Assembly (NCBI GenBank): GCA_030710605.1
Contig: CP092865.1
Span: forward strand, 137,553,585-137,617,584
DNA from: Cordylochernes scorpioides
Lineage: Eukaryota; Arthropoda; Arachnida; Pseudoscorpiones; Chernetidae
Length of the DNA stretch: 64,000 nt
Direction of reading: 5' to 3'
The position numbers were made by a program, and so were the translations under genes. This document shows, in pieces, positions 24,377-64,000 of this stretch (positions are counted from its first letter, which is position 1; the number at the start of each line of letters is the position of its first letter). The notes beneath the pieces were generated by a model. That model was not told the DNA's origin and did not search any database. It was given only the letters and a program-made list of their open reading frames with translations.

Positions 24377-24396
24377 AACCTCTGAAAAAGAGGGCC

Positions 24397-33780: not shown

Positions 33781-33819
33781 TAATACCATTTTAGATTTGG
33801 TCCTAATTGCTTGCAAAAT

Positions 33820-34208
33820 AAATGCAGGCCTCCGTGCAGTTGGAAAGAGTCGGAAAACTCCAACCGGCGGACAGAGTAGCGACAAGCTCTTCTGCCGGCA
33901 TTCAGGATTGTCGCAATCTCCGATTATTTGTGACGGACAAAAACACGGGATTGCGCTTTTTAGTGGACAGTGGTGCTGATATATCTATAATACCTCCAAA
34001 GGATAAAAATAGGATGCCTAGCTCTGATTATAAATTATATGCAGCCAATGGTACAGAAATTGTTACCTATGGAACAAAGGTTAGAAATTTGGATATCGGA
34101 CTTCGACGTCAATTCCAATGGCCTTTTGTAATCGCCAATATAAACAGAGCAATAATAGGAGCCGATTTTTTTGAACAACTTTGGATTGATTATCGATATA
34201 AAAAATAA
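33820..34208 (+). pseudogene. Gypsy-1 aspartic protease
   Basis: NTGLRFLVDSGADISIIPPK holds the DSGAD active-site triad of retroviral-type proteases. LNIGLRRQF-type and AIIGADFFEQL residues form the second conserved half (I-I-G-x-D). Frame breaks before 33822 and near 34190 separate it from Gag and the reverse transcriptase. Confidence 0.8.
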
Positions 34209-35680: not shown

Positions 35681-36990
35681 CTATCGACTATGAAGAGATC
35701 GCCAAAGAACAAACTGGTGATTCAGAACTACAAAACCTGATTTCAAAGAAAACTTCTCTAAAATTTAAGCAATGCCCACTACAATCAGGCAATTTGTTAT
35801 GGTGTGACGTGTCTACCAATAATATTAGACCATTCATTCCAATTAAATTCCGAATGATGGTTTTTAGGAACTTCCACGAACTCTCACACCCAGGCATCAA
35901 AGCCACTACTAAACAATTAACATCAAGATTTATATGGCCCAATATGAATAAAGACATTAGGAAATGGGCTCAAGCTTGTGTCAACTGCCAAAAGTGCAAG
36001 GTGTCGATACACACAAAATCAGAAATAGGCAAATATCAAGAAGTGGATGAAAGATTTAGTGTTGTCCACATAGATCTAATTGGTGCTTTACCTCCATCGA
36101 ATGGTAACATCTACTGTCTGACCTGCATCGACAGGTACACCAGCTGGATGGAAGTTGTTCGCTACCAGATATGAAGTCTGAAACGGTAGCGAGAGCGTTC
36201 TACGAAAACTGGATTGTTAGATTTGGAGCACCGCATACAGTGATATCAGACCGAGGAAAGCAGTTTACTTCTCAACTTTTTCAAAGATTTAACAACGCTG
36301 TGTGGTATCAAACTTCGCCATTCCACGGCGTACCACCCTCAGTGTAATGGAAGATTGAAAGGCTTCATAGAACCATTAAAACTGCCATTCGTGCCCACAA
36401 TAGTATTAAGTGGACAGAAACGCTGCCAACAGTTCTCCTAGGCTTGCGTGCTGCTATCAACAAAGATAACAACCATTCTTTGTCTCAGATGGTATATGGC
36501 AAAACCATCAGACTGCCTGGCGAATTCTTTGATGATTCTAAACATCACCTGCATGCTGAAGAATTTGTTCAACAGCTTCAAAAGCAAATGGAATTGCTCA
36601 AACCCTTAAATGAAAAACATCATTCGAAGACTAAAGTATTTGTTCATAAAGATCTGAAAACATGTTCACATGTATTTATCAGGACAGATCGAGTGAAGAA
36701 ACCTCTGGAACCACCATATGAGGGACCCTTCCCAGTCCTTGAAAGAACAGACAAGTATTTCACACTCAAAGTGAAAGGAAAAAAACGTTACCACATCGAT
36801 TGACCGATTGCGACCTGCTTATTTGCTGGCAGATTCGGACAATATAACTGCAGAACATCCTACTGCAGCAAGACCCATCGTGTCGGGAGCGCTGCCTTCT
36901 ACATCGTCCCAACAGAATCCTGACCCACCAGATGTGGAGAAGTACACAGAATTCAAGGAACAGGATCAGCACCAGACCTGCCTAGGACAA
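35680..36990 (+). pseudogene. Gypsy-1 integrase
   Basis: The zinc-binding HHCC part is visible as HELSHPGIKATTKQLTSRFI ... CVNCQKC. The core begins VVHIDLIGALPPSNGNIYCL (first D) and, after a shift near 36170, continues with SDRGKQFTS (second D) and the region around HRTIKTAIRAHN. The C-terminal part (36444-36803) has YGKTIRLPGEFFDD and the KPLEPPYEGPFPVL domain typical of Gypsy integrase tails. Frame breaks near 36170, 36285, 36350 and 36790. Confidence 0.88.
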
Positions 36991-38319: not shown

Positions 38320-38425
38320 TCATCTATAATGGGGAGGAAGAAATATTCCTGAAGTTACTGTTGACTTTGCTTTGAATTTTTAATGAAACTGATTCCAAGA
38401 ATTATAATCAAACATTATATTTATT

Positions 38426-38718
38426 GCGAAAAAATAGTACAAATGTGATATTGTACTGGGATAAGGTGCATAAATTATAAAAAAGGCATCTCCCTATTGT
38501 GCAACTGAAAGTTGCTGATGGTATGCGCCATCTATCGGAATAAATATCAACTATTCTCGTTGATTTCTTTTCTTGATTAATCAAAAATGGGTATTTGGCC
38601 AATTCTGGAATAATTAAAAAATCAACGAGAATAGTTGATATTTATTCCGATAGATGACGCAAGCCATCAGCAACTTTCGGTTGCACGATAAGGAGATGCC
38701 TTTTTTTTATAATATACT
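38426..38718. mobile_element. foldback derivative of the hammerhead repeat
   Basis: GGCATCTCCCTATTGTGCAA ... CTATTCTCGTTGATT and its complement at right form a palindrome of about 230 bp. The left flank CGAAAAAATAGTACAAATGT is the complement of the end of the repeat at 63427-63711. The hammerhead itself is absent. TTTATTG on both sides is a likely target duplication within the repeat seen uninterrupted at 32170-32230. Confidence 0.7.
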
Positions 38719-38991
38719 ATGTTTATTGATTTTACAAGAGAGAGAACAAAATATAAAAGGGAAATTAATATTAAAAAAATAAAACTTTTTTTTCGGTTAG
38801 CACCTATTAACTTGAGATCTTACACATGCTCTGTGGAAACAATCAATTAATTAATAATTATACAACAGTTTTTTTTTGTTAAAAACTACAAATATTCCTC
38901 TCAATGAGTTTATTTTAATTTTAAAATGCCAACTTTCAAGTGCACTTGCAGTAAAAGCGTGCGTTAACTTGATACGGAAAAAATATATATA

Positions 38992-40301
38992 TTGGGAGTA
39001 CAAATAAGTTTTGAGGGATTTGCAAAAGAAGCCACAACAAATATTATATAAATAGCAAGGTTATAGCATAGGTTATAAATAGCAAACTTTGTAAGGTTCA
39101 TGTTAAGGCTTCATCATTTCCCCAAAAAAATCAGAAGAAGTCTTTTCACTCAAGTGTAAGGAACTTTTTTTTTTTTGGTGCTCTAACCATGTCAACCTTT
39201 TTGCCAACAAAACACAATTTGCGGGAAGCGCTGCTTTTTGTTTTAATTTGAAGAAAAGTGCAACTGATGGACATCGATTGCTGTGTGAGGCATATGGTAA
39301 ACATGCTCTATCAATAAAATCATGTGAGTACTGGTTTCGGCATTTCAAAAGTCGCGATTTTGACACCAGAGACAAAGAACGCGGAGGGAGGCCAATAAAG
39401 TTCGAAGACGCTGAGTTGGAGGCTTTATTGGACGAAAGATTCAAGCCAAACTCAAGAGGAGCTCGCTGAAACCTTGGGAGTGACTCAACAAGCGATTTCG
39501 AACCGTCTCAAGGTCATGGGTATGGTGCAAAAACAAGGAAATTGGGTTCCATATGAACTCAAGCCAGGAAACATCGAGCGCCGTATTTGCACGTGCGAAC
39601 TACTGCTCAAAAGACAAAATCGGAAGGGTTTTTTGCATCGAATCGTGACGGGGGACGAAAAGTGGATTCACTACGACAAGCCAAAGCGCAGAAAATCGTC
39701 GGTTAAGCCCGGTCATGCATCAACTTCAACGGCCAAACCGAATATTCATGGCAAGAAGCTAATGCTGTGCATCTGGTGGGATCAGCACGGAGTGATCTAC
39801 TATGAGCTACTTCAGCCTAACGAAACCATCACTGGAGAACGTTACCAACAACAATTGATGCGATTAAGCCGAGCATTGAAGATTAAACGCCCACTATATG
39901 CCAAAAGACATGACAAGGTGATCTATCAGCACGACAACGCTCGGCCACATGTTGCAAAAGTTGTCAAGGAGACTTTGGAGGCGCTTCAATGGGATGTCCT
40001 ACCCCACCCGCTGTATTCACCAGACATTGCTCCTTCAGACTACCACATGTTCCGTTCGATGACACATGGCCTGGCCGAGCAGCACTTCACTTCTTACGAA
40101 GAGGCGAAAAATTGGGTCAATGTTTGGATCGCCTCAAAAGACGAGGAATTTTTTCGACACGGAATCCGTATGCTGCCTGAAAGATGGGAAAAAGTCGTAG
40201 CTAAAGATGGACAATACTTTGAATGAAATATATTGTACTGATTTCTCTGAATAAAGCTTCGAATTTATAAAAAATCCCTCAAAACTTATTTGTACTCCTA
40301 A
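38992..40301 (+). mobile_element. mariner transposon with TIRs, nearly intact
   Basis: 1310 bp. The left end TTGGGAGTACAAATAAGTTT with TTGAGGGATTT is matched by the right end AAATCCCTCAA plus AACTTATTTGTACTCCTAA, flanked by TA on both sides. It contains a single transposase gene. Confidence 0.93.
39189..40226 (+). pseudogene. mariner transposase (DD34D), two single-base frameshifts
   Basis: ATG at 39189 (MSTFLPTKHNLREALLF), helix-turn-helix region ALSIKSCEYWFRHFKSRDFD and LGVTQQAISNRLKVMGMV. Catalytic residues are in VTGDEKWIHYD, IYQHDNARPHVAK and YSPDIAPSDYHMF; the last two aspartates are separated by 34 residues, the mariner DD34D triad. Two breaks interrupt the frame: one T missing in the run at about 39234-39238, and one extra A at 39435-39437. 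Both are in homopolymers; otherwise about 345 codons are open. Family assignment is firm; whether it is active cannot be told. Confidence 0.9.
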
Positions 40302-44738: not shown

Positions 44739-46166
44739 TCAACAATCTATGAGCCTAATACTCTGCACATCTCCTCCCTTAACTTTACAGGAACCTTCGA
44801 GGTATCTTGACTGCCCTTCCATATCTTGTATGCACGGCTGGCATTGAAGGGAGGCTCTTCTCTGGATCCTGGTCTTGGTTGTCCCTCTGCATCCTTCCAT
44901 CTCTTGTAGATGAGGCCGTTTGGTGTAGGGCAATCCTCCTCGGTCCTCTTGCTCCTGGTCATCCTTGCATCTCCTTGAGAGCCGGGTTGATGTCGAAGTG
45001 GGGGTCTCCTCATTTCTCTGCTCCTGGCGCTGGCCCTCCTCAGAAGCATCCATGGTACCTCCCATTTTTGGTAGAGGTGTGAGGTGGAGTCTGTTTCGCC
45101 TAACTTTTCCTTGGGGAGTTTGTACCCAATAGGAACGCGGTTCTTCGGATTTGTGAAGAACTGTTCCTTCTACCCTTTGATCTCTAATCCAAACGCTGTC
45201 CCCTTGTTGAAGCGGAGGCAAGCTATGTACATCGTGTCGTTTATCATATAGGCGCTTCTGGTTGATCACCCTCCTTTTCTCTCTTTCTTGCAAAGCTTCG
45301 GAGTCCAAGTACCTTGGCATCAGTGATGATTCTATTGCTGGAACAGAGGTCCTAAGGCGTCGTCCCATTAATAGTTCAGCTGGACTATAACCACTTTCCA
45401 GGGGCATCGTTCTATATGCTTGAAGAGTCAGATAGCAATCTTCTTCTTTCTTAAAACTTTGCTTTATATTCTTGATAATTGCTTCAATAAATCCATTGCT
45501 TTGAGGGAATTTCGGGCTGGATGTGATATGTTTGAAAGACCATTCCTTAGAAAATTTTGAAAATTCGGAACCCAGAACTTTTTGGAATTGTGGTCCATTA
45601 TCGCTTCTCACAGTCTCAGGTGTTCCATGCCTAGCAAATATAGATTTAAGACGGCTTATTACTTCTTGAGCAGTTAGATTTTGTAAAAGTGATATTTCTG
45701 GGTACCTGGAGTAGTAATCACATACAATTAGATACCATCTCCCATTTAGATAAAAGAGATCCATTCCGACTTTTTGCCAAGGCCTGATCGGAAATTCTGA
45801 GGGCATCAAAGGTTCATGCTTGGGTTTTCTCTCCTTCAAGCATTTTGTACACGACGAAACCATCCTTTCAATCTCTTGGGAAATTCCTAACCACCAAACC
45901 GATTCTTTTGCTCTAGATCTGCATTTATTGATCCCAAAATGGCCTTGGTGCAATTTCTCAAGGATATCTTTCCTCAATGACTTAGGGATTAGAATTCTTT
46001 GTCCTCTAAGAAGAAGACCATTCTGATAGGTCAGGTCCTCCTGAAATTGCCAGTATCCTCTTAGTGCTGGATCTACTTCTCTTTTATTCTTAGGCCATCC
46101 ACTCATACAGTATTTAGCCAATTGAGAGCAAAGTGAATCTTTCTTTTGCTTTCTAGAAATCTCCAA
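44739..46166 (-). CDS. Gypsy-B integrase
   Basis: 475 codons. HQGHFGINKCRSRAKESVWW ... CTKCLKE is the HHCC module. The catalytic core has GMDLFYLNGRWYLIVCDYYS (D), VRSDNGPQF (D) and SPKFPQSNGFIEAIIKNIKQ (E). The C-terminal region carries LLMGRRLRTSVP and a basic tail. The frame overlaps the LTR at its end and joins RNase H upstream through a one-base shift near 46200. The long uninterrupted frame suggests a recent insertion. Confidence 0.93.
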   Translation of the reverse strand: MEISRKQKKDSLCSQLAKYCMSGWPKNKREVDPALRGYWQFQEDLTYQNGLLLRGQRILIPKSLRKDILEKLHQGHFGINKCRSRAKESVWWLGISQEIERMVSSCTKCLKERKPKHEPLMPSEFPIRPWQKVGMDLFYLNGRWYLIVCDYYSRYPEISLLQNLTAQEVISRLKSIFARHGTPETVRSDNGPQFQKVLGSEFSKFSKEWSFKHITSSPKFPQSNGFIEAIIKNIKQSFKKEEDCYLTLQAYRTMPLESGYSPAELLMGRRLRTSVPAIESSLMPRYLDSEALQEREKRRVINQKRLYDKRHDVHSLPPLQQGDSVWIRDQRVEGTVLHKSEEPRSYWVQTPQGKVRRNRLHLTPLPKMGGTMDASEEGQRQEQRNEETPTSTSTRLSRRCKDDQEQEDRGGLPYTKRPHLQEMEGCRGTTKTRIQRRASLQCQPCIQDMEGQSRYLEGSCKVKGGDVQSIRLIDC

Positions 46167-46204
46167 AAGTCTTTCTTCTGTTGCTGGAAATTCAATGGAT
46201 TGGA

Positions 46205-48127
46205 TTACGCAGAAAGTTCTTCTTCCAATTCATCTTTATGTGGTTTAGACATAGGCTTCCTTGATAACATATCAGCCACTATTTGCTTTTTGCCAGCAAT
46301 GTGACTTATTTGATAAGAATACCTCATCATCCTCATTTTTAATCGCTGAAGTCTGGGAGTTATGTCTTCCAAGGATTTGGACGTAAAAATGGCAATCAGT
46401 GGTTTGTGATCTGTTTCAATATGGATTTTAATACCTGTAACATAATCCTTTAGTCGATCACAAGTCCATACTATAGCCAGTCCTTCTTTTTCAATTTGGC
46501 TGTATCTTTTCTCCGTTTCTGAAAGTGTTCTAGAAACATAAGCTATAGGTTTTAAAGATCCATCAGGTTGTTCTTGTCTTAGAACCCCACCTAATCCAAA
46601 TGAAGAAGCATCAGCCGATACTATGGTCGTTCTTGAGGGATCAAATAAAGCGAGGTTAGGTCTAGATACTAACTCTTGTTTCAGCAGGTTAAAGCTCTTT
46701 TTCTGAGGTTCATCCCAAACCCACTCGTTTTTTGTACTTAGTAACGAATTCAAGGGTTGTAATTTATCCGCAAGGTTGGGAATGAATTTTCCTAAATAAT
46801 TCACCATGCCTAAGAAAGACTTCAATTCTTTTGTTGATCTAGGCGCCTCCATTTTTGTAATAGCATCGAGCTTTTCTTCGTCAATGAATAAGCCTTCTAA
46901 ACTCAATGTGTGTCCCAGGAATTTTACAGTTTTAACTCCAAATTGACACTTTTCTGGGTTGAGTGTCATCCCTTCTTCTTGGATTTTCTTCAAAACTTGG
47001 CGTACCCTTTCGTTATGTTCTTTTAAGGAAGATCCGTATACTACAATATCATCCATGAAGCATACAACCCCTTCTATTTTGCCCAGAAGCTGAGTCATCT
47101 TTCTTTGAAAGATTTCTGGTGCCGACGTTATTCCAAATGGGATTCTTTTGAAAAAGAACCTGCCGAATGGCGTTATAAAGGTGGTTAGTTTTTGGGATTC
47201 TTTAGCTAACCCAAACTGCCAAAATCCAGAATTTGCATCTAGCTTGGAAAAATAGCAAGCATTTCCCAGCTGTCCCAGGATATGCTCTGTCGCAGGTAGC
47301 GGATAATTTTCTCTTCTTATATATTGATTTAGCTTCGTTAAATCAACACAAATTCTTATTTTTCCTCCTGGTTTCGATACTGCGACCATTCCCGCACACC
47401 ACTCAGTCGGCTCTTCTACTGATTCAATGACTCCTAGCCTGGTCATCTCTTCAAGTTGTTCTTTTGCCTGTTTCATTAAGGGAATTGGAACCCTCCTAGG
47501 GGTGCATAAAGCGTATGGTTTCGCATCTGGTTGTAGGGATATTTTGTAATTTATTTTAGCATGTCCTAAACCATTAAATATTTCTGGAAACTCTCTTTTT
47601 GGATTTAAAAAATTTGATGATAATTGCTGAATCATTCTCACAATGTTTAATTTTTCACTTGTCTCCCCAGAGAGAAGTGGCTGCTTTAGTTTATCAACAA
47701 TGTATATTTTCGAGTTTAAGTGCTGGCCTTTATTTTGAAGTTCTACGTAGATCATTCCAACTGTTTCCAAGGGTATTCCATTTGGACCTTGTAATATTTT
47801 AACAGATTTTTCCAGTTTTATTCTTTGGAAACTTTGATAATAATATTGTAGGAGGAGCACGTTGACATCAGCTCCGGTGTCAATTTTAAAATTAATTTGT
47901 CTATTATTTACCCTAATTGGTACTATCCATTTCTTGGAATTATCCTCTACAGATCCCAAAAAAGCTATCTCTGATTTTATTTCATTTATGGCTTCTGATC
48001 TACATACTTTGGCATAATGGCCCTTTTTCTTGCATTTACTACAATACGAGTTCATAGCTGGACAATTTTTCCAATCATGATTATTTGAATTGCCACACCT
48101 GGTGCATCCATGTGATGACCCTCCCAA
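46205..48127 (-). CDS. Gypsy-B nucleocapsid, protease, reverse transcriptase and RNase H
   Basis: 640 codons in one frame: zinc knuckles (CTRCGNSNNHDWKNC, CSKCKKKGHYAKVC), protease FKIDTGADVNVL, polymerase with GGKIRICVDLTKLNQYI, YFSKLDANSGFWQF, RIPFGITSAPEIFQRKM and the catalytic FMDD (47060-47049), thumb ELKSFLGMVNYLGKF, RNase H (IVSADASSFGLGGVL, IEKEGLAIVWTCDR, HIETDHKPLIAIF). All catalytic acidic residues are present. Gag upstream (48254-48760) is in another frame. Confidence 0.95.
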   Translation of the reverse strand: MGGSSHGCTRCGNSNNHDWKNCPAMNSYCSKCKKKGHYAKVCRSEAINEIKSEIAFLGSVEDNSKKWIVPIRVNNRQINFKIDTGADVNVLLLQYYYQSFQRIKLEKSVKILQGPNGIPLETVGMIYVELQNKGQHLNSKIYIVDKLKQPLLSGETSEKLNIVRMIQQLSSNFLNPKREFPEIFNGLGHAKINYKISLQPDAKPYALCTPRRVPIPLMKQAKEQLEEMTRLGVIESVEEPTEWCAGMVAVSKPGGKIRICVDLTKLNQYIRRENYPLPATEHILGQLGNACYFSKLDANSGFWQFGLAKESQKLTTFITPFGRFFFKRIPFGITSAPEIFQRKMTQLLGKIEGVVCFMDDIVVYGSSLKEHNERVRQVLKKIQEEGMTLNPEKCQFGVKTVKFLGHTLSLEGLFIDEEKLDAITKMEAPRSTKELKSFLGMVNYLGKFIPNLADKLQPLNSLLSTKNEWVWDEPQKKSFNLLKQELVSRPNLALFDPSRTTIVSADASSFGLGGVLRQEQPDGSLKPIAYVSRTLSETEKRYSQIEKEGLAIVWTCDRLKDYVTGIKIHIETDHKPLIAIFTSKSLEDITPRLQRLKMRMMRYSYQISHIAGKKQIVADMLSRKPMSKPHKDELEEELSA

Positions 48128-48253
48128 CTGGTTTGACTTGAATTGTCTTATTTTTTATTCGTGCCTTTTTGTTTCTTTTATGTGATTAGGCATTTTCTTT
48201 ATTTGATCTATAGAATCTTGTTGGTAAAGGCTAGACTGCTGTTCTTTGACACT

Positions 48254-48760
48254 TTATAATTGCTTTGCCATTAGTGTGGCTTTTACTAAGGTCAAGTCTG
48301 TATCAAGTTGCATTCTTTCAGATAATGCTCTATCCCTTACTCCAACAACTATCCTATCCCTAACCAACTCATCATGTAACATCCCAAAATTGCAGTGCTC
48401 AGCTAGGCTATGGAGTGCTGTGATAAATTCATTCACCTTTTCCCCTTCCTGCTGACATCTTTGATTAAATCTTGCCCTTTCATAAATTATATTACGTCTT
48501 GGAATAAAGTGACTTTCAAAGCATTCAATAACTTTATTATAAATTTCTAGTTGGTCACTTGCTATTTTACATGACAACAAAATGTCATCTGCATTATCAC
48601 CCATGCAGTACACGAGCATATTAACTTGCTCATTTTCTGGGTTATTAATTAACCCACTTGCCTGCCTAAAACGTTCAAATCTCCTAATCCATTTTGGCCA
48701 ATCACCTGGATTTGAAAAATTAAAAGGTTCTGGGGCTACACAATTATAATTTTGGGACAT
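48254..48760 (-). CDS. Gypsy-B Gag
   Basis: 168 codons starting MSQNYNCVAPEPFNFSNPGD. It has the Gag core WIRRFERFRQASGL, MLVYCMGDNADDILLS, SHFIPRRNIIYERARFNQRC and HSLAEHCNFG, typical of Gypsy elements. A break between 48254 and 48127 separates it from the zinc knuckles. Confidence 0.88.
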   Translation of the reverse strand: MSQNYNCVAPEPFNFSNPGDWPKWIRRFERFRQASGLINNPENEQVNMLVYCMGDNADDILLSCKIASDQLEIYNKVIECFESHFIPRRNIIYERARFNQRCQQEGEKVNEFITALHSLAEHCNFGMLHDELVRDRIVVGVRDRALSERMQLDTDLTLVKATLMAKQL

Positions 48761-48804
48761 TATAAAGATTTATTTATAATATAATATAACTTACCAAAAA
48801 GTTT

Positions 48805-51504: not shown

Positions 51505-52404
51505 CTACTTCGGGGGGGGGGGGGGGGGGGGGGGAATCTTGTTCGCAGTGATTAATTTTAAAACTGACCCAAGGTGAACGTCAGTAATTCTCGATCTGAT
51601 TGGAGACTTATTTCCATTCATAAGTGAAAATAACTGCTCGCACCGATAAGTACTTCCAAACATGGACATAATTTCATATGCTAATTTTCGAGTGTTTTCA
51701 AATCTGGCTGGCAAATATTTGTAAAATTCAGAAACGCCAACTTCAATGAATTTTGCCTTTAAATCTGAATCGCACTGGATATCTATTACCTCCATTTGCA
51801 TATGATTAGGTACTGATTCTATATTTATCGAGAAAATCGAAGAAAACAAAGTAAATTTGCCTTCCAAAGATTTGAAATCAGAAAACCTTGTTTCAAATTC
51901 ATTTCTAAGACTTAAATTTTTTTCCGCATATTTTTGATACAATGCAGTTTCACCTAAACTTGATTTGTACATGTTGCATGTCGGAAAGTGCATTAAATCT
52001 TCGTTTTTCAACTGCTTTTCCCAATGAACTAGCTTACATTTGAATGCATTAACTTGGTCACACATGTTGGTAATGATCTGATCCTTTCCTTGCAGTTTCA
52101 AATTAAAATCCGACAAGTGTTTTGTTATGTCAACCATGAAGGAAAAATCTTGCAACCATACTTGATCAGAAAACAAAGTGATGTCTTGATTCTTGGTTAT
52201 TAAAAACTGACATATTTCTTCTTTCAAGTCCCAAAATTGTTTGATAACCTTGGAGCATGATAGCCAACGTACCTCGGTATAGTATGATAAACCTGAATAT
52301 TCGCTTTCTAATTCAGTTAAGAGCAGAGAGAACTGTCGCTGATTTAAACCTCGAGATCTTATGAAATTGATGAATTTTTTGATAGGTGTCAACACATTTT
52401 CCAT
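51505..52404 (-). pseudogene. hAT transposase, C-terminal part
   Basis: 299 codons: FINFIRSRGLNQRQFSLLLT, YYTEVRWLSCSKVIKQFWDL (conserved RW), then helical sequence to FGSTYRCEQLFSLMNGNKSP and SRITDVHLGSVLKLITAN, the hAT dimerisation region of GTF2IRD2/ZBED-like transposases. The last codons read through a 23-nt G run (51512-51534, polyproline). The upstream part continues on the far side of Copia (57130). Confidence 0.9.
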
Positions 52405-52639
52405 TTTTATTACCTTCGTACATAATACTTCCTGATGTATAATTGTAGTATTTTAAATAATTACAACTCTCTTTAAAGCAATAAAATAATTATTTATTGC
52501 ATTTAGCAAGACAAGAAAACAAAACCAACACGGGAAGCCAAAAAAAAAAACGTACAGGTTAGTTCCTATTCCAAATCTAGCTTTCACACAGAGTATTCAA
52601 AAATAAAATACGACAATCCCTCCCCTGTGTGGAAGCTTC

Positions 52640-53708
52640 CATCAAACAAGTCCTAGAGAGTTTATACAGTTTTTAAGTTTCTCCTTGGGAAGACTCTTTG
52701 TTAATAGGTCCGCTTCCATTTCGTCACTCCTAACAAATTCAAGGTCGATTGTTCCTTCTTCCACAGCATCTTTTATAAAATACAATTTTCGGTTTATATG
52801 TTTCGTCCGGGAAGTTATTTTTCAGATTTAATCCACTTGATAGCAGATTGACTATCTGTTTTAAGCGTTGTAGGAAAGTTCGCATCCTCACATATTTCTT
52901 CTAAAAGTCCTTTAATCCATTTTACTTCGCACATCCCTTCGCATATCGGAATCAGTTCGGCTTCGCATGTAGACAGAGCCACCAAACATTGTTTCTTGCT
53001 TCTCCAACTGATCAGGTTGTTTCCCAGTTTAACTGTGTATCCGGAATAGGACTTTGCGTCACTTGTTCAACACCAGCTTGCATCTGTGCTGACAAGAATG
53101 CTATTTTCTGATGGCTTGTATCTTAACATTTTATCTCTGGTGCCCTTCAGGTATCTATATATTCTCTTAACTCCTGTTAAATGTGCTTCTCTTGCATCAT
53201 TGCAAAATCGGGATAAATTGCTCACATTAAAGGAAATATCTGGACGAGTTCCGGTTGCCAAATACATCAGGGATCCGATCATCTCTTGATACAATGTCCT
53301 GTCTACTGGTTTGGAGTCTTGACATTCATCAAAACTTTGGTCTCGATCTCCCGGAGTTTGTACAATGTTACATTCCTCGAGTGCAAATTTCTTCAAGATT
53401 TTATCGATATAATGGGCTTGTGATAGATCAAAACCGTATTCTGTTTTCTTTATCTCTATACCAATGAAAGGTTCATTCTCCCCTTTTTCTTTTAAAGCAA
53501 CAAATCTTCCTATCTCTGATGCTAGTTTTTCATTAAAGGTTTTATCCGTTCCGGCTATTATTAGATCATCCAGGTATAAACCCAATATTCCATATTCCTT
53601 TTCTAAAAGTGTACACACATGGATCATATTGCGATCTTTCCATTCCCAGTTGTATAAGTATCTCGTTGATATTTTTATTCCAACAATGTCCCGATTGTGG
53701 AAGTCCAT
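52640..53708 (-). pseudogene. Copia reverse transcriptase C-terminal part and RNase H
   Basis: LGLYLDDLIIAGTDKTFNEK carries the YLDD catalytic box. FIGIEIKKTEYGFDLSQAHY, YQEMIGSLMYLATGTRPDIS and HLTGVKRIYRYLKGTRD are Copia hallmarks. RNase H starts LVSTDASW and continues beyond a stop at 53067 in broken form (ADWC-like, ALSTCEAELI, TDSQSAIKWI) to about 52640. It joins the preceding frame by a shift near 53590-53640. Confidence 0.88.
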
Positions 53709-54369
53709 ATATACTTTTTAACAATTTGCAAACTTTGTCTTCTTCACCTTTTTCAACAAATCCTTCCGGCTGTTTCATAAAAATAGTTTCTTTCAATTCT
53801 CCGTAAAGGTAGGCGGTCTTCACATCATATGATGTTATAACCAAATTCAACTGAGCTGCTAGGGCTACAATTGCACGAAGACTTTCTTTTCTGATCACTG
53901 GTGAAAAAGATTCCTCATATTCTACGCCATATTTTTTATTACAACCAATAGCAACTAATCTAGCTTTTCTTCTATAAACACCCTCACCAGGCGTACTCTT
54001 TATGCTAAAGATCCATTTGCAATTTATGATCTTCATATTCTTTTCTCTTTGAACGAGAGTCCATACCTTATGCTTGTCAATAGAGTAAAGTTCTTCTTTC
54101 ATTGCTTCGAGCCATTCATATTTATTCTCGCAGTTAATCGCCTCCTCATAATTTTCGGGAATACGTTCTTCTGGTTCTAATATAAAATTCACGTTATTTC
54201 TTTCTTTTATTCTTTGTGAACGTCGAACGCCTTGTTCAAGCAATTTCATTTCTTCTTCTCTCAGTTTTGCTCTGTGTTTTTCTTCTAAAACCTTTTGTGT
54301 ATCTCCCTTTTTGCGACCTGACCTTACAATTCTTTCCTCGTTAGGTTCGTCTAGCGTGCGTTTCTTCAT
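53566..54369 (-). pseudogene. Copia reverse transcriptase, N-terminal part
   Basis: Linker rich in charged residues (RRSQRIKERNNVNFI), then EAINCENKYEWLEAMKEELY, WTLVQREKNMKIINCKWIFS, RLVAIGCNKKYGVEYEESFS and YDVKTAYLYGELKETIFMKQ with PEGFVEKGEEDKVCKLLKSI. This is the Copia polymerase fingers/palm. Frames break at both ends. Confidence 0.9.
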
Positions 54370-55153
54370 TTAGTTCTGAGGTTTCTGGACGCGTCCGAAG
54401 GTCGATTTCATTATCATCTTCCTCTTCCTTTTTATATGAAAAATGGTCGTAATTTGTGTCTTCTTGAAGATTTTTTGCATAATCAATTCCTTTCTCATTT
54501 TCGACACATTTTACTGATCTCACTTCTTCTATTTTCTTAGTGATTATGTCATACACTCGATAAGCCTTTCTTTTCAGAGAATAGCCAACAAAAATACCTT
54601 TTCGACTTTTAGGCATAAATTTACTTCTATGTTGTTGTATAATGGGCCAAAACGCCAAACAACCGAATATTCTTAAATGTCGAATGGAGGGTTTTCTTCC
54701 TTTCCATTTCTTCATTGGTGTATCAAGCTTGATTGACCTATGTGGAGTACAGTTTTTGACATATGATGCAGTAGCGACTGCCTCCGCCCAGAAAGCCATG
54801 GGTAATCCTGAATCAAACAATAATGTCCTTGCTGTTTCAATTAGGGTTCGGTTTACTCTTTCCGCAACTCCGTTACTTTGTGGCGAGTAGGTGGTGGAGA
54901 GTTGGTGGTGTATTCCATTTTTAATTAAGAGATTCTTGAATCTGTGATTAGTGAACTCTGTGCCATTATCAGTTCGCACATCCTTTATTTTCAGGTTTAG
55001 CTCATTTTCCACTCTTGCCTTAAATTCTTCAAACTTCCCCAAAGTTTCATCTTTGTTTTTCAGAAAGTAGATAAAGGTTCTTCGGCTGAAGTCATCAACC
55101 AGAACAAAAAGTATTTTGATCCACCTAGAGATTGGTATGGCATTGGACCACAC
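54341..55153 (-). pseudogene. Copia integrase
   Basis: LVDDFSRRTFIYFLKNKDET, VRTDNGTEFTNHRFKNLLIK and TYSPQSNGVAERVNRTLIET give the catalytic D, D, E. PMKKWKGRKPSIRHLRIFGC and KGIFVGYSLKRKAYRVYD are the typical Copia post-core blocks. The preceding zinc module is in the Gag-Pol frame (HRRLNHLNEAYMKEIIQQ ... CEACIMGK); the shift between them is in a T run near 55120. Confidence 0.92.
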
Positions 55154-56679
55154 AAATCCATATGCAACAATTCAAGGGGTTTGGTTGTACAGTTGGTGGT
55201 AACGGAATGGTAAGGTTGTCGAGTCAATTTCCCCATTATACAAGCTTCACATTCTGGCAAGTTCTTAAATTTAACATTAAACCCCAATACCATATTCTGT
55301 TGAATTATCTCTTTCATGTACGCTTCGTTCAAATGATTCAGTCTTCTATGCCACAAGCTGATATTGTCATTTGAGAAATCATCTTTTGTGGTCATGACAT
55401 TCTCCATCTTTTCCGAGTATTCATCTCTGGACCTTGTTTCCATTACATACATCCTATCCTGGATTTGAGCCTCTGCAATTAAATCATCCTGTTCATTGTA
55501 AATCTTTGCTCCATCTCTATTGAAAATTACAGTATTTCCTTTGTTAGTTAATTCGTATATTGATAAAAGATTAGACCTTAAGTTAGGTACATGCAGAACT
55601 CCTTTAATTTGAACATTCTCAATTCCGTTTTCGGTACAAGTAGAAACCTTGATATCACCTTTAGCTGTAGCATGTGTAACTTTACCTTCTTCTGCCAAAT
55701 TTATCTCACTTTCATAAGGCATTACATTTTCCATCCAGTCCAAGTGTGGAGATAAGTGCGTAGTACACCCTGAGTCAAGACACCAGGTTTGTATCTGACT
55801 ATAATTATTTGAGGAGTTTTCAAAAACTCGATCTGTGCTGGTATTGAAAGTTTGTTCCGCAGGCTTGCTTGAGACGGTATTCGCATTATTTCTGAAATTT
55901 TGTTTGTTATAGTTCGTATTTGAATTTGCATTTCTTTTCCCATGTTGTTCTTGAGTTCGCTTATTTTTGAACCAGCAATCTTTAGCTAAATGTCCTTTTT
56001 TATGGCAAACAAAACACTCCTTTTGTCGATTCTGTTGATAGTGATTTCTTCTGTCTTTACTTCTGTAAGCCTGTTCATTTTCATCAGAATGACTCCCATT
56101 CATCTTAGAATTCATTCGATTCTCTTCCTCTCTAAGTGACTGCCGAATTTCATCAAGAGTTAAGTCTCTTCTAGTTCTCAGTACAACAGCGATCTTTTCC
56201 AATCTTGGATGGATACCTCGCACAACATGAAACGCTAGTTCTCTTTGGGATATTTGGTGTCCGAGTGAAGAACTTTGAGAGGCAATATGTTTGGCTCTAG
56301 CCATATATTCATTTATGGATTCATTATTTTTCATCTTGATATTCTTAAGTTCAAGTCCAATATCAATGATCTTATCTTCTAGGTTGCCTGTGTAGATTTT
56401 CTTTAATTCATCCCATACTTTCTTTGCTTTAGTTTCATCTAGAAACATTCCTGCTTGTTCATCTGATAGAGTTGTAACTATAATTCCAAAGGCTTCGTCA
56501 TTCTTTTCACTCCATATTTGCCAAGCGACTTCATCTTTTATATCAGGCTCGGGATCCGAAATTAGGAATTTAAATAATTTCTTTCCACGTAAAAGTGCTC
56601 CGACTTTTAAAGCCCAAATCGGATAATTTGTTCCTGTTAAAGGTTCAATTTTTGTGGTTGGCGAAAAATTGCAATCCAT
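55060..56679 (-). CDS. Copia Gag, protease and start of integrase
   Basis: 539 codons from MDCNFSPTTKIEPLTGTNYP. Gag has PIWALKVGALLRGKKLFKFL and FHVVRGIHPRLEKI, with zinc knuckle CFVCHKKGHLAKDC. Protease has WCLDSGCTTHLSPHLDW (DSG). HRRLNHLNEAYMKE ... CEACIMGKLTRQPYH is the integrase HHCC, and PLELLHMDLCGPMPYQS (first catalytic D) leads to the frameshift. Good continuous frame, consistent with the nearly identical LTRs. Confidence 0.95.
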   Translation of the reverse strand: MDCNFSPTTKIEPLTGTNYPIWALKVGALLRGKKLFKFLISDPEPDIKDEVAWQIWSEKNDEAFGIIVTTLSDEQAGMFLDETKAKKVWDELKKIYTGNLEDKIIDIGLELKNIKMKNNESINEYMARAKHIASQSSSLGHQISQRELAFHVVRGIHPRLEKIAVVLRTRRDLTLDEIRQSLREEENRMNSKMNGSHSDENEQAYRSKDRRNHYQQNRQKECFVCHKKGHLAKDCWFKNKRTQEQHGKRNANSNTNYNKQNFRNNANTVSSKPAEQTFNTSTDRVFENSSNNYSQIQTWCLDSGCTTHLSPHLDWMENVMPYESEINLAEEGKVTHATAKGDIKVSTCTENGIENVQIKGVLHVPNLRSNLLSIYELTNKGNTVIFNRDGAKIYNEQDDLIAEAQIQDRMYVMETRSRDEYSEKMENVMTTKDDFSNDNISLWHRRLNHLNEAYMKEIIQQNMVLGFNVKFKNLPECEACIMGKLTRQPYHSVTTNCTTKPLELLHMDLCGPMPYQSLGGSKYFLFWLMTSAEEPLSTF

Positions 56680-57124
56680 TTTAGCCTTGTTTTCAACTTT
56701 TTAAAAATTAAACAATAAAGTTTAAAGGTAGTTTATAATTCAAAAAATGTTTTTTTTTTCAATCCTTATATTTAAAACTTTCTTTTATCAATATAATTCA
56801 AATTCTATTGAAAAATATTTCAAAATTTACATACCTTGATGCAGAAGAGATCTTTGTTTACCGATTAGAATTAAACGTATCAAACTTCTGAGATAAAATA
56901 TTTTCGCTTTTTCTCAAGTTTTAAATTGAACCAGGCTCTGCTACCATAAATTGTAGTATTTTAAATAATTACAACTCTCTTTAAAGCAATAAAATAATTA
57001 TTTATTGCATTTAGCAAGACAAGAAAACAAAACCAACACGGGAGGCCAAAAAAAAAAAACTTATAGGTTAGTTCCTATTCCAAATCTAGCTTTCACACAG
57101 AGTATTCAAAAATAAAATACGACA

Positions 57125-57656
57125 ATAATGCAATGCGTATGATGAATATTGGAACCATCAGAAATTTCACTTCGTTTTTTTCGCAGTAATGCTACGAAAC
57201 CGTTGGTTTTTCCAGTCATTGAAGGAGCTCCATCTGTTGCTACAGAAGTCAATTTTGATTGAGGTAAATTGTATTTTTGCAGAAGATCATAAACGCAATT
57301 AAATATATCTTCTCCTGTAGTAGTGCCATGCATCAGTACTAGTTCCAATAATTCCTCAAAAATGTTGAAATCCGTGTCTCAAGCTCGAAAAAAAAAACAG
57401 CTAACTGAGCTACGCCCCCAATGTCCGTACTCTCATCACAGGCAATGGGAAATGCTTCGAAACAAGATGATTTTTCTTTTATCTGATCATTTAAATTTCT
57501 GGCCATATCAGTAACTCTTTCCACAACGGTATTTCGAGACCAAGATATTGCTTGAAACGTCTTCACACTTCCAGGACAAACAATTTCTGCAGCTTTAATT
57601 AAACATTCCTTGATGAAATCGCCTTCAGTAAAAGGTTTTGAGTGTTTAGCTATCAT
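57125..57656 (-). pseudogene. hAT transposase, middle part (catalytic core)
   Basis: Two frames: 57656-57339 with FTEGDFIKECLIKAAEIVCP, SRNTVVERVTDMARNL and FPIACDESTDIGGVAQLAVF (first catalytic D), and 57348-57130 with TSVATDGAPSMTGKTNGFVA (second D) and HTHCII, where Copia cuts in. The shift between them lies at a run of ten T (read on minus) near 57388-57397. Confidence 0.88.
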
Positions 57657-58024
57657 CTCGATAAAACGTAGCTTGCATGCACCGCCGCTTCACTCTCTTG
57701 TGATACTTTAGTAAACATAAACTGTTGTTTTTTCATTCCCAACTTGAACTCTTTTAACTTTTCTTGTCTCATTAAACCTTCGTAGGTATCATATTTTGAT
57801 TTATGTTGTTCATAATGACGTTTAATGTTATATAATTTTGGTACACTAATAGCATTATTACATATCAAGCAAATGATTTTATCTTTTACTTCAGAGCAAA
57901 AATACTCTAATTCCAACTTTTCTTGAAAATTCCTATGTTCGTCAGCAATTTTTCGTTTAGTTTTACTGCCACTTGGTTTTGATGAAGATGTAGTCGTACT
58001 CTTCATTTTGACTATTTTAAACAT
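57653..58024 (-). CDS. hAT transposase N-terminus with zinc finger, start supplied by Gypsy-C LTR
   Basis: Basic start SSSKPSGSKTKRKIADEHRN, then FCSEVKDKIICLICNNAISV and YNIKRHYEQHKSKYD, a C2H2/BED-like DNA-binding finger. The Gypsy-C LTR joins at 57988/57989, so ATGs at 58024 and 58006 come from the LTR. The original ATG lies at 62768-62766 beyond Gypsy-C. A missing G near 57655 shifts it from the catalytic part. Confidence 0.88.
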   Translation of the reverse strand: MFKIVKMKSTTTSSSKPSGSKTKRKIADEHRNFQEKLELEYFCSEVKDKIICLICNNAISVPKLYNIKRHYEQHKSKYDTYEGLMRQEKLKEFKLGMKKQQFMFTKVSQESEAAVHASYVLSR

Positions 58025-58437
58025 GTTTATAATTTTAAAAAATGTATAATATTTTAAAAGTGTTTTAAAAACTATAATTTTATTAAATAATGAATATGCA
58101 AAATAATATACTTCATTATTTTATTTATTTTATTTTATTTTAGAATCAATAATAATTTGTATATTTTTGATAACTCTGTGACCTAAAAATATAGAAGTCA
58201 TTAGATACGTAGTTAAGTTCGTTGCTGGTAGATGTAAATATTAACCACCATTTTAATTTATCAATTTGTATTGTAAATAAAAATAATTAATTTGATTTAA
58301 AAAGGCTAAGGCTAATTCTTTAAAACATCTACCACAATTGGTGAGCCGGAATTAAAAAGAACAATTAAATCAAGAAAAACAAACATTATTATTAAAAATT
58401 CAAGATAGACCGAAGAGGAGTTAACGAGCGGCGGCGG

Positions 58438-59069
58438 ATGGAACCCTACCATGAAGCCTGCAAGGTAAGCATTAAAATACCTCCATTTTGGACAGATAAA
58501 CCTGAAATTTGGTTTTATCAAGTTGAAGCTCAATTTAACATAAATGCGATAACATCCGAAGAAACAAAGTTTAATTACTTAATTGCACAACTAGAGCCAA
58601 AATACATTGAAAATATTTGGGACATAATTACTCTCGATAGTAAATTTAAATACACTGAATCTAAAACACGCCTTTTAAATATATTTAAAGATAGTGAAAG
58701 TGTTCGAATTAAAAAACTTTCTCAGGAATAGAACTTGGAAATATGAAACCAAGTCAATTGTTACAAAAATTGAGATCTTTAGCCACTAGTGATATATCTT
58801 CTAATTTAATTAAGACCTTATGGCTAGAGAAATTACCTGACTCAATGAGAAACATATTGCTTGTAAGTGATGAAGATGTGACAAAATTAGCATCAATGGC
58901 GGATAAGATTATGGACATGACTTTTTCTCCTGATGTCTGTGAGGCTAGTTCTTCACAAACCTCTCATAATGTTATGGAGAACCTTTTAGAAAAAATATAT
59001 TCACTTGAAAAACAAGTAGCTGAAATTAACCTGTCAAGATCAAGGCCATCATTTAGAACTCGACGCTAA
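58438..59069 (+). pseudogene. Gypsy-C Gag
   Basis: MEPYHEACKVSIKIPPFWTD then EIWFYQVEAQFNINAITSEE, KFNYLIAQLEPKYIENIWDI; after a shift at about 58728, MKPSQLLQKLRSLATSDISS, LWLEKLPDSMRNILLVSDED and a charged coiled-coil-like region LLEKIYSLEKQVAEINLSRS. Near-parallel to Gypsy-1 Gag, including the break at the same place (after IKKL). Confidence 0.85.
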
Positions 59070-59279
59070 CGATCTAGATCCAGTAGCCGAATCCGTAGAA
59101 AATACGATCCAAAATGGCAGCTTTTGTTATTACCACTTTCGATTTGGAGCTCGTTGTATTCCTGAAAAATGCAAGCCTCCTTGCAAGTGGGTAATAAATA
59201 AGACGAATAATCAGGAAAACTCCATGCTGCCGTAGAAGACGCAGCACATTCTACAGCAGATAATTTAAATAGTTGCTGC

Positions 59280-60755
59280 AAATATCGTCTATTTATAAAA
59301 GATAAAAATTCTGGCCTACAATTTTTAATCGACAGTGGAGCTGATGTCAGCATTGTACCTCTTAATAAAAATGATAAACGTAAAAACGACTACAAGCTCA
59401 ATGCTGCGAATGGTTCGGAAATTGAAACCTATGGTGTCAAAATTTTAACCTTGGATCTAGGGTTACGCCGGGAATTTCAATGGCCATTTGTGGTAGCCAA
59501 GGTGAACAAAGGCATCTTAGGAGCTGATTTTCTAAACAAATTTAACTTACTTATCGATATAAATAAAAGAAAATTAATTGACGGTATTACCAATTTAGCA
59601 ATAAATGGAGTTATAACATCTATTACAGAAAATAATAATATAGTGACACTTTGCAATAATGTAAATTTTTCAAAATTATTATCTAATTACCCTAATATAA
59701 CCAAACCTGCATTATTTCCGACTAAACCAGAACATGATGTAAAACATTTCATAATAACTGAAGGACCTCCTGTACACTCAAAAGCAAGACAGCTTGATCA
59801 CAAGCGACTTGCGATTGCTAAGCAGGAATTTAAATTTATGTTGGAAAATGATATCATACGACCATCAAAATCTCATTGGGCTAGTCCATTACATATGGTT
59901 GCCAAGAAAGATGGTTCTTTCCGATTATGTGGTGACTATAGACAACTTAATGCTAAAACTGTCACAGACAGATATCCTATACCACGCATTGAAGATTTTC
60001 ATCATATTTTAAAGGACGCCAAGATATTTTCCAAAATTGATTTGCTGAAAGCCTATTTTCAGATACCAATCGAGGAAAAAGATAAATGCAAAACAGCTGT
60101 GATTACACCATTTGGACTTTTTGAATATAATGTAATGAATTTTGGCCTTAAAAATGCACCATCATCTTTCCAACGATTTATACATGAAGTTTTATGGGGC
60201 TTAGATTTTGTCTTTCCCTATTTAGATTATATATTAATTGCATCGGCTAGTGAGGTAGAACATTCTAGACATCTCAAAATTATTTTTGAAAGACTAAATA
60301 AATATGGTCTCAAAATAAACGTTTCGAAATCTATATTTGGTGTAACTGAATTGAATTTTCTAGGATATCTTGTTACACCAGAAGGTTCAAAACCTTTGCC
60401 TGATAAAGTACAAGCAATTGTTGACTACAAGTTACCTGAAACTGTTCATGACCTTCGAACTTTTCTAGGCATGATCAAATTTTATAGAAGATATTTAAAA
60501 GATGCGGCACAAACTCAAGCAATTTTACATGAATACCTTAGAGGTGCAAGGAAAAAAGATAAGCGTAAAATCCATTGGACAAAGGAAGCTCAGATTCATT
60601 TGAAAGGTGTAAACAAAGTTTAATAAATGCAACCTTATTATCCTTTCCCCATCCTGAACTACCCCTGTCTCTAAGTGCAGACGCATCGGATTCAGCAATT
60701 GGAGGGGTAATTCAACAAAAAGAAAATGGAATGTGGAGACCAGTCGCATTTTTTT
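59280..60755 (+). pseudogene. Gypsy-C protease, reverse transcriptase and RNase H start
   Basis: LIDSGADVSIVP (protease) precedes the long frame 59451-60623: IKPSKSHWASPLHMVAKKDG-like block, FSKIDLLKAYFQIPIEEKDK, FGLFEYNVMNFGLKNAPSSF and YLDY where YLDD is expected (60219-60230), so the second catalytic aspartate is changed by one base. The thumb is LRTFLGMIKFYRRYL. RNase H begins in the next frame (LPLSLSADASDSAIGGVIQQ). Confidence 0.88.
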
Positions 60756-62332
60756 CAAAAAATTAAATAATACACAAAAGAATTACAGCACCTATGATAG
60801 AGAACTTCTTTCAATTTATCTCTCAATTAAACATTTCAAATATTTGTTAGAAGGAAGAGAGTTTGTGATTTTCACAGATCATAAGCCATTAATATATGCT
60901 TTCGTGCAGAAATCTGAAAAAGCAACTCCAAGACAATTGCGACAATTGCAGTTTATATCACAATTTTCAACTGATATTCGGCATATTAAAGGACAAGATA
61001 ATATTGTTGCTGATGCTCTTTCAAGAATTGAAGAATTAACCTTGCTTGATTATGATGAAATTGCAGAAAGACAAAAGATGATGAGGAGCTTAGAAACTTA
61101 CAAAGTACATCAAAATAATTGAATTTCAAGCAATATCCTCTTTCATCTGGGAAATACTTGTGGTGTGACACATCTACAAATCATATTAGGCCTTATATTC
61201 CAGAATCTTTTAGATTTAGGATGTTTCAACAAATTCATGGCTTATCCCATCCAGGTATCAGATCTACTGTTAAGCAAATGTCATCAAAATTTATTTGGAG
61301 AAGCATAAAAAAGGATGTTCAGCAATGGTCTCGATGTTGCATCCCATGTCAAAAAAATAAGGTTACACGACATACTAAGTCAAATATTGGAGAATTCCAA
61401 GACCCTATGGAAAGATTCACCGAGGTACATATTGATCTTGTAGGTCCTCTACCTCCATCTAATGGCAATACTTATTGTCTAACTTGTATAGACAGATTTT
61501 CAAATTGGATGGAGGTTGTTCCTTTGGAAAATATTTCAGCTGAGAGAGTAGCTAGGGCTTTCTATGAAAATTGGATTTCACGATTCGGTACCCCACACAG
61601 ACTGATTTCAGATCGAGGAGCACAATTCACCTCTGAAACATTTAAATGCCTGTCAAGACTCTGTGGATTTAAATTACAGCATACTACAGCTTACCACCCA
61701 CAGTGCAATGGTAAAGTGGAGCGTCTTCATAGAACAATAAAAGCAGCACTGAGAACTCATGATAATTTAGCCTGGAGTGAAACGCTTCCAACTGTTCTTG
61801 TTGGATTACGCACTGCGTTACAGGAAGACACGAACCTCACAATTGCTAAAATGGTTTATGGAAAAAATATCCGTCTTCCAGGAGAATTCTTCTGTGAAAC
61901 TAAGATCCTGCCATCATCAGAGACTTTTGCAAATAAACTCCAAAAGCAAATGGAATCTATGGGACCAAGACAAAATAAGGTAAAATCTTCATATAAGATT
62001 TTGTGCCCAAGGATTTGTCATCGTGCTCGCATATTTTCCTTCGTGTTGATAAGGTAAAGAAATCTCTAGAACCACCATATAATGGACCCTTTCCAGTACT
62101 GACTAGAACAGAAAAATACTTTACAATTTGTGTAAAAGGAAAAGACATGACAGTTTCTATTGATAGATTGAAGCCAGCTTATTTATTAGGAGATTTTAAA
62201 TCAGACAATTTTGTTACGACACAGCCAGTTGTGACAAGACCAAATATTTCAGAACGGACTCAAGTACCCTCTGATATCAAGACATCTCGTTCTGGAAGAA
62301 TCATTCAACTTCCTGTTAGATTTCAAGACTAA
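60733..62332 (+). pseudogene. Gypsy-C RNase H end and integrase
   Basis: NYSTYDRELLSIYLSIKHFK, FVIFTDHKPLIYAFVQKSEK and DNIVADALSRIEE close RNase H (60733-61122). Integrase 61119-62057: HGLSHPGIRSTVKQMSSKFI ... CIPCQKN, VHIDLVGPLPPSNGNTYCLT (D), ISDRGAQFTSETFKC (D), YHPQCNGKVERLHRTIKAAL (E). The C-terminal domain 62003-62332 has KSLEPPYNGPFPVLTRTEKY. Shifts near 61120 and 62010-62040. RNase H and integrase catalytic residues are intact. Confidence 0.9.
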
Positions 62333-63170: not shown

Positions 63171-63426
63171 TTGTATTAGACTCGTCAAGATCATGAATAT
63201 TTTATGGTAAAATAATATTATAAAATATTAAAGTAGTATTATAAAAAATTATACAATTCTAAAAGTAACTTTATTTATAGATTAGTTTTAAAAATATTTT
63301 AATCAATATTATTTTTCTCTCTATGAATATTATTTATTTTAAAAACATTTTTGACCGCCCCTTCCCCTCCCCCTTTGCCGTTTATTTTGAAAATCTCTAG
63401 GGGTAGTATAATACATTTATTAATTA
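63171..63426. other. AT-rich flank, possibly Gypsy-A continuation
   Basis: TTGTATTAGACTCGTCAAGA could continue Gypsy-A's coding end (LVKIMN-like reading), but no LTR or terminal motif is seen. Ends with a C-rich patch (CCCCTTCCCCTCCCC). Confidence 0.3.
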
Positions 63427-63711
63427 AGAAAAAGGCATTTCCTTATCGTGCAACTGAAAGTTGCTGATGGCTGGCGCCATCTATCGGAATAAATATCAAC
63501 TATTCTCGTTGATTTTTAATTATTCCAGAATTGGCCAAATACCCATTCTTGATTAATCAAGAAAAGCTAACCACGGACGCGTTTCGGGCTGTTGGCCCTC
63601 ATCAGCGTGGTGCAAGCTGTACCTCAACGACCAAAAAAATTTGTCATTAAGGCATCCTGAAAAATCATGAAACGGGTAGTTAAGGCCAGAATTGCGTTAC
63701 ATTTGTACTAT
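63427..63711 (-). mobile_element. hammerhead-bearing repeat, second subfamily
   Basis: AAAAGGCATTTCCTTATCGT through ATTGCGTTACATTTGTACTA. It shares layout and ACTATTCTCGTTGATT with the foldback at 38426-38718, and the segment around the ribozyme (GATTAATCAAGAAAAGC) with unit 1 at 18776-19099. Single unit, no coding capacity. The ribozyme is at 63571-63610 on the minus strand. Confidence 0.7.
63571..63610 (-). ncRNA. hammerhead ribozyme, canonical core
   Basis: Minus strand, in order: CCACG, CTGATGA, GGGC-CAACA-GCCC, GAAA, CGCG, TC, CGTGG. Every invariant core base is present, with cleavage triplet GUC. Stem I extends to ACCACG/CGTGGT. Stem II has a G-C pair where the 18.9-kb copy has C-G, a compensatory change. 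Stem III is limited to self-complementary ACGCGU, as in minimal animal hammerheads that act best as dimers. Confidence 0.88.
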
Positions 63712-64000
63712 TTTTTCACATTTATTAATATTAGCCCTTTTGGGTGACCCGAGAGATTTGGCCAGATTTGAAATATGACGTCACGATGACGCGCGATGTA
63801 AACAAAGGTTATGATTGATTCATTGTTTTTTTTTAAACAAGAATTAATTATTAATATTTTAAATACCTGTGATTAATTTATATTTTTACTATATTTATAT
63901 ATTTATTTTTGTCTAAATGGCCTTTTATTTTAAATTAGAAATTTGTATGAAAATATTTAGCGCAATTGTAAACACGTGTGTGTTATGAATGCACAAGATG
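63712..64000. other. no gene recognised
   Basis: AT-rich end of the window apart from a GACGTCACGATGACGCGCGA patch at about 63777-63796. Nothing assignable. Confidence 0.35.

Follow-up and report, generated by a model that had tools for sequence, protein, structure and literature searches.

Small hammerhead retrozymes have been published for invertebrates including arthropods, and Penelope-like elements were named as strong candidate partners of retrozymes on the basis of shared features and co-occurrence (PMC7229834). A review states that the autonomous partner of metazoan retrozymes cannot be deduced from any conserved motif in them (PMC7761336). The metazoan non-LTR retrozymes of coral, mussel and axolotl are described as tandem copies of a non-coding unit of 170–400 nt with a GC content below 50%, a type I hammerhead and duplications of more than 4 bp, and for the axolotl HHR_Amex1 the description gives a palindromic helix III of one pair (PMC7229834). 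The sequence analyzed here, a stretch of 64,000 nt of the pseudoscorpion Cordylochernes scorpioides (contig CP092865.1, positions 137,553,585 to 137,617,584; in the following the window), contains a repeat which resembles these elements in each of the named features, with a unit of 338 nt and a GC content of 41%. Two differences were found. The helix III is weak in an invertebrate, whereas most invertebrate retrozymes cleave efficiently as monomers (PMC7229834). Furthermore, the repeat forms head-to-head arrays with outer ends at positions 278 and 324 of the unit (u278 and u324), whereas the words "inverted" and "head-to-head" are absent from the main text of PMC7229834.

The Penelope-like elements are the second group for comparison. 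In Anolis, the PAc protein cuts and extends both target strands and the tail is the stretch between two start sites of reverse transcription; in vitro, the start site was equal between the strands and hammerhead cleavage was not needed (PMC11167929). In Adineta, the pLTRs were described as inverted, one of them bearing a tail, and the duplications as 8–10 bp long (PMC3846280). Head-to-head copies, one tailed end and short AT-rich duplications are thus common to these elements and the arrays described here, and hammerheads have been reported in Penelope-like elements as well. In contrast, the retrozyme unit has neither an ORF nor a reverse transcriptase or endonuclease, and it was not found in the Penelope-like copies examined. 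The pairing of a short with a tailed end holds in 28 of 31 head-to-head arrays here, whereas the accounts of PAc and Adineta describe the tail as optional (PMC11167929; PMC3846280). The W-elements of Schistosoma are also hammerhead repeats with a very short stem III and one possible target-site duplication; however, they form satellite-like arrays in a flatworm, and a paired-end pattern is not part of the description drawn on here (PMC8490949).

The motif in the window is most probably (probability about 0.7) the ribozyme of a non-autonomous metazoan non-LTR retrozyme which is inserted via a Penelope-like protein on an RNA template. The retrozyme class itself is known. The paired-end rule of head-to-head insertion, which is also seen in a Penelope-like family of this genome, is apparently new, and no paper in the literature searched joins retrozymes with head-to-head insertions; priority is uncertain.

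The hammerhead motif and the retrozyme copies in the window

The following features of the retrozyme were identified in the window (u, position in the unit):

63425–63717, minus strand: copy A, unit positions u1 to about u278
63571–63610, minus strand: type I hammerhead core of copy A (stem I, stem II, ACGCGU helix III), from sequence reading and strict descriptor
63556–63630, minus strand: hammerhead of copy A with extended stem I, as modelled
63696–63722, plus strand: inverted head of copy A, a tailed end of 27 bp (u299–u325) which overlaps the duplication by a few bases
63413–63424: low-coordinate copy of the target-site duplication ACATTTATTAAT, 12 bp
63718–63729: high-coordinate copy of the target-site duplication ACATTTATTAAT, 12 bp
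18766–19078, minus strand: copy B, of a diverged subfamily with about 70% identity to the unit, from u305 to u277 across the unit junction
18916–18955, minus strand: second intact hammerhead, in copy B
38425–38709: copy C, head-to-head, without hammerhead, u323–u182 followed by u131–u272
20059–20264: copy E, head-to-head, without hammerhead, of the subfamily of copy B
3482–3932: copy D, old, with a decayed hammerhead at 3503–3574 (plus strand) and inverted 3′ pieces at 3833–3932

The initial annotation had reported a hammerhead at 63571–63610 on the minus strand with all invariant blocks in order. This observation was confirmed as a real type I hammerhead motif, a predicted ribozyme, exactly as claimed. 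The 40 nt read CCACG / CTGATGA / GGGC-CAACA-GCCC / GAAA / CGCGT / C / CGTGG and comprise the type I core CUGANGA ... GAAA ... UH with stems I and II and an open stem I. With a strict descriptor (stem I of 5 bp, stem II of 4 bp, CTGANGA, GAAA, TH), 2 motifs were detected in the window, whereas 200 dinucleotide shuffles held 0.035 on average and never more than 1. Across the fetched genome loci the strict motif occurred 78 times, 75 of them with ACGCGT; the search of viral and prokaryotic contigs for the exact motif pattern gave no match. The pairs CCACG/CGTGG, described before as closing stem I, are present, but the stem is longer and continues in copy A with an A-T pair, a 3x1 internal loop and AGCT/AGCT. 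The predicted cut lies between positions 63576 and 63575 (u121/u122).

The short stem III ACGCGU was likewise borne out. Within one copy it consists of a single A-U pair and the palindromic loop CGCG, whereas between two copies ACGCGU could form a palindromic helix of 6 bp. Because of this one-pair helix III with its palindromic loop, the two-copy hammerhead is the likely active form.

Covariation is in agreement with the claimed type I fold. Copies A and B differ in 85 of 281 aligned columns; the 6 substitutions at paired positions of the ribozyme form 3 compensatory pairs and none of the 14 pairs is broken, for which the probability under random placement is 0.0006. In 39 fetched loci the model gave 86 matches, 39 of them distinct. 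Changes on both sides were found at 9 of the 14 pairs, compared to a mean of 3.1 after shuffling (9 was reached by 0 of 500 shuffles), and 94.1% of the alignment cells pair. This alignment was fitted to the model structure and leans towards it, whereas the comparison of A and B is free of that bias. Both elements fold far better than their shuffles (z of −6.4 and −6.0), and one unit folded as a circle reaches −108.1 kcal/mol, closed by a helix which spans the unit junction.

The Rfam covariance search, put forward with the initial annotation as a check, gave hammerhead matches below the gathering score. The best scores were obtained with Hammerhead_HH9, namely 26.5 bits for copy A (E 2.3e-4, search of 601 bp) and 30.4 bits for copy B (E 1.3e-5), compared to a gathering score of 52. 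Neither in the window nor in four array loci was a match at the gathering score detected.

The description as a short non-coding repeat is correct but incomplete, since copy A is flanked by 12-bp direct repeats and the genome unit comprises 338 bp. A direct repeat of at least 12 bp in the geometry of copy A was found at 35 of 2000 random places and at 12 of 2000 AT-rich places of the window. The duplication of copy A recurs in two fetched loci (L002 and L003), which were treated as the same insertion, multiplied together with its surroundings. It was considered whether the element truly begins with the first 20 nt of copy A; this was rejected, as they belong to the inverted tailed end u299–u325. 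Copy C is framed by a near-duplication with 10 of 11 matching positions (38416–38426 and 38718–38728) and reaches just 5 bp in the exact-match test.

Other transposable elements are dense in the window (13228–24439, 33371–36803, 39399–40226, 44739–48769 and 51505–62057). Their frames were read as gypsy-, copia-, jockey-, mariner- and hAT-like, and one gypsy frame was supported by a search. Two proteins of Cordylochernes scorpioides match this frame with 97% identity over 82% and 98% over 80% of its length, while the hit with the top score has 81% identity over 100%.

Genome unit, insertion ends and template

The assembly of 2.62 Gb was searched with 301 bp around copy A. The 40 best-scoring of 446 candidates were scored and returned 45 matches, a sample which favours young close relatives of copy A. 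The unit in the fetched copies was found to be 338 bp in length (one copy: L012:541–878) and unbroken across its junction. Its GC content is 0.411, and the longest stop-free stretch of 49 codons leaves it without an ORF. After removal of five repeated insertions, 41 distinct arrays were obtained. Of these, 31 are head-to-head, with the 3′ ends of the units facing outwards, and none is tail-to-tail.

The outer ends of the head-to-head arrays lie near u278 (short end) or near u324 (tailed end), 46 nt apart. In 28 of the 31 arrays one short end is combined with one tailed end, and no array has two tailed ends. The exceptions are one array with two short ends, two arrays in which one end fits neither site and, outside the head-to-head class, the 10 of 41 arrays which run in one direction only. 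With an independent 50:50 choice of the ends, at least 28 unlike pairs out of 29 would have a probability of 5.6e-8.

Many arrays are flanked by duplications of about 12 bp. An exact flank repeat of at least 8 bp within 10 nt of the ends was found in 29 of 32 short/tailed arrays (repeated insertions and copy C of the window included), compared to 144 of 600 mismatched flank pairs. When at least three different bases were required and repeated insertions were removed, such a repeat remained in 18 of 28 arrays, compared to 51 of 756 mismatched flanks. Many flanking duplications are AT-only, and the other 10 of the 28 arrays have mostly AT-only stretches. Clear examples are ATAATGGCATCTG around an array of 2006 bp (L041) and ACATGCCTTTACAT around 1534 bp (L034). 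Among the short/tailed arrays with an arm longer than one unit, 13 of 21 have a duplication of at least 8 bp. A whole multi-unit array within a single duplication points to one insertion event.

The affiliation to the small animal retroelements, assumed in the initial annotation, was thus substantiated by unit size, tandems and flanking duplications. The features of a retrozyme are found together: a non-coding 338-bp unit with a type I hammerhead, tandems (35 of 73 arms exceed one unit) and duplications of more than 4 bp (18 of 28 arrays). The insertion pattern also gives indirect support to an RNA-templated spread of the repeat. An old head-to-head array of a subfamily about 70–76% identical to the unit adjoins a young array in one locus (L033:4830–5718).

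The arms reach a length of up to 4.4 units, and 60 of 73 traverse the predicted cut site. No excess of inner junction ends was found around the cut, with 4 of 70 at a distance of up to 10 nt and 4.3 expected (repeated insertions included). Both observations argue that the template of most arms is a circle or an uncut multimer and not a ribozyme-cut linear monomer. A snap-back cDNA of the ribozyme-cut RNA had been considered as the source of foldback copies, based on copies C and E, which lose the hammerhead just past the cut site; it was rejected on the same count of inner ends.

In the region u150–u270, the divergence between opposite arms of one array is 1.14% (49 pairs), similar to the 1.0% between units within one arm (28 pairs) and lower than the 2.87% between different arrays (3326 pairs); the value for opposite arms was matched by 0 of 1000 permutations. 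This higher likeness suggests that both arms were copied from the same or a near-identical template, to which later gene conversion could contribute. The two arms overlap by 1–9 nt at 23 of 34 head-to-head junctions, are joined bluntly at 1 and are separated by 3–19 extra nucleotides at 10 (repeated insertions included).

We consider the template to be an uncut, probably circular, retrozyme RNA. The strongest competing explanation is insertion from long uncut linear multimeric transcripts, with the ribozyme irrelevant to insertion; roughly one chance in three may be given to it. The frequent crossing of the cut site and the missing enrichment of inner ends fit such transcripts, and PAc RNA without hammerhead cleavage was the dominant substrate in vitro (PMC11167929). 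However, the hammerheads have been kept intact, as the strict motifs of the fetched loci demonstrate, and arms of 4.4 units would require transcripts that escape several ribozymes. The likeness of the arms fits one circle, but one long transcript as well.

Penelope-like elements of the host and the proposed mechanism

One Penelope-like element was identified in the window:

10030–13090, minus strand: Penelope-like element with reverse transcriptase and GIY-YIG (RVT_1 and GIY-YIG matches)

It includes pieces of its own ORF, inverted at 12689–13090 and direct at 10030–10256. On the ORF (12608–10462), the outer pieces of this composite stop at positions 2017 and 2066, at a distance of 49 nt from each other. 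This resembles a pair of short and tailed ends, but these ends lie in the 3′ part of the ORF. By eye, no duplication was seen around the composite element. A hammerhead search within it yielded nothing convincing, neither by covariance with the filters off (best E 0.28) nor by the strict descriptor.

For the analysis of further Penelope-like copies, the genome was searched with the protein P0002, and 51 of 70346 candidates were scored. Among the copies listed, long open frames are numerous, and both head-to-head pairs and tandems (period about 2.72–2.73 kb) occur. Of the P0002 family, two tandem junctions, the 3′ sides of twelve copies and the 5′ sides of eight were fetched. No match was obtained for one 3′ side (L066); the remaining eleven and the inverted arm in L071 provide twelve outer ends. 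Four of these end at a short site (L063, L064, L070 and L080) and eight at a tailed site 29 nt further (L062, L065, L068, L071, L072, L074, L076 and L078), where the tailed ends overshoot by 0–7 nt with the better-fitting reference and by up to 21 nt with the other. The three head-to-head insertions read at both ends (C24, C17 and C10) each combine one short end with one end bearing the 29-nt tail, and they share flanking words of 15, 17 and 13 bp, respectively, which may include a few element bases.

The pattern of head-to-head arms, one tailed end and a short duplication was therefore found in 28 of 31 retrozyme arrays and in 3 of 3 insertions of the host Penelope-like family. This agreement makes the Penelope-like protein a candidate and points to it as the enzyme which may spread the sampled retrozyme copies. 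In addition, the 24 nt before the short end were compared between the two elements. They are most alike exactly at this position (rank 1 of 338 unit positions), and a proportion of 0.0006–0.0008 of random window words scores as high, a value uncorrected for the choice of the best among four neighbouring positions. Over 30 nt the likeness is weaker, with rank 1 (tied) and rank 2 and proportions of 0.014 and 0.018. The likeness may be regarded as a lead toward a shared recognition sequence for the start of reverse transcription.

The connection to Penelope-like elements drawn in the initial annotation therefore holds for the insertion pattern, but the unit was not found inside the copies examined, and it has no ORF for a reverse transcriptase or GIY-YIG endonuclease as in Penelope-like elements. 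This bears on a second alternative, in which the arrays are no independent retrozyme but the pLTRs left by a Penelope-like element with a hammerhead after the loss of its coding part. Penelope-like elements typically have pLTRs in head-to-head orientation, with a tail and short duplications (PMC3846280), minimal hammerheads were reported in pLTRs (PMC7761336), and families other than those among the 51 scored candidates exist. On the other hand, no unit-like sequence was detected in the Penelope-like element of the window, nor within the element at the tandem junctions and ends of the one family analyzed; the single significant match, a retrozyme relic with 64.5% identity over 172 nt (L063:526–692), lies in the flank outside the Penelope-like insertion. 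Among the array loci, a clear long Penelope-like coding match was found in L005 only, whereas the other hits are weaker and concern chimeric gene models. The arrays themselves repeat the 338-bp unit without an ORF. The loss of a coding part is hence an unlikely origin of the arrays.

For an independent retrozyme inserted by the Penelope-like protein, the following course can be proposed. Genomic copies would be transcribed, and the type I hammerhead would cut the multimeric RNA into units of 338 nt, which could be joined into circles. A Penelope-like RT/GIY-YIG protein, the putative enzyme, would make a staggered cut in an AT-rich target, with the nicks about 12 bp apart. The two ends of the target would then serve as primers on the same RNA template, and reverse transcription would start at u278 from one end and at u324 from the other. 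The cDNAs would vary in length, often exceed one unit and cross the ribozyme cut site, and they would be joined head-to-head, mostly with short overlaps. In its most specific form, the proposal states that one circular RNA serves both ends of the staggered cut, that the Penelope-like protein primes them almost always at two different fixed positions 46 nt from each other, and that it travels round the circle more than once, with the two primings coupled and not independent, as the short/tailed pairing would then imply. This form is tentative, and we rate it at somewhat below an even chance.

The retrozyme insertions bear a mark in common with the host Penelope-like family, namely fixed ends in pairs, of which one is tailed, and a duplication of about 12 bp; this mark could make the partner deducible. 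The enzyme and the template of animal hammerhead RNAs would become testable in other genomes from the insertion ends. For the Penelope mechanism itself, the data suggest a rule of one short and one tailed end, which was not seen in vitro.

Inverted copies could also derive from twin priming of the LINE type. LINEs produce variable target duplications and inversions, which would fit such an origin. However, twin priming on one linear RNA is not known to repeat the same 3′ part in both arms, as is the case here, and the constant positions of the outer ends in 28 of 31 arrays speak against it, as do the same ends in the Penelope-like copies. This origin is very improbable. Even less credible is a DNA element of the satellite or foldback (MITE-like) type which unequal exchange or a transposase would have spread: the tandem units and long inverted arms would fit, and copy C alone resembles an element with inverted repeats of 94 bp, but multi-unit arrays lie inside one duplication, the outer ends differ by 46 nt, the inner ends vary over the unit and tail-to-tail arrays do not occur, and the reading of copy C as a DNA transposon was rejected on the same evidence.

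Finally, a hammerhead-like remnant was noticed by eye between tandem Penelope-like ORFs in two loci (L060, about 310–345; L061, about 297–330). Rfam gave nothing for this remnant, and the covariance model matched stem II and GAAA only (8.1–9.3 bits, E 0.2–0.5). It consists of CTGTAGA and a stem II with GGG/CCC, followed by GAAAGCTC.
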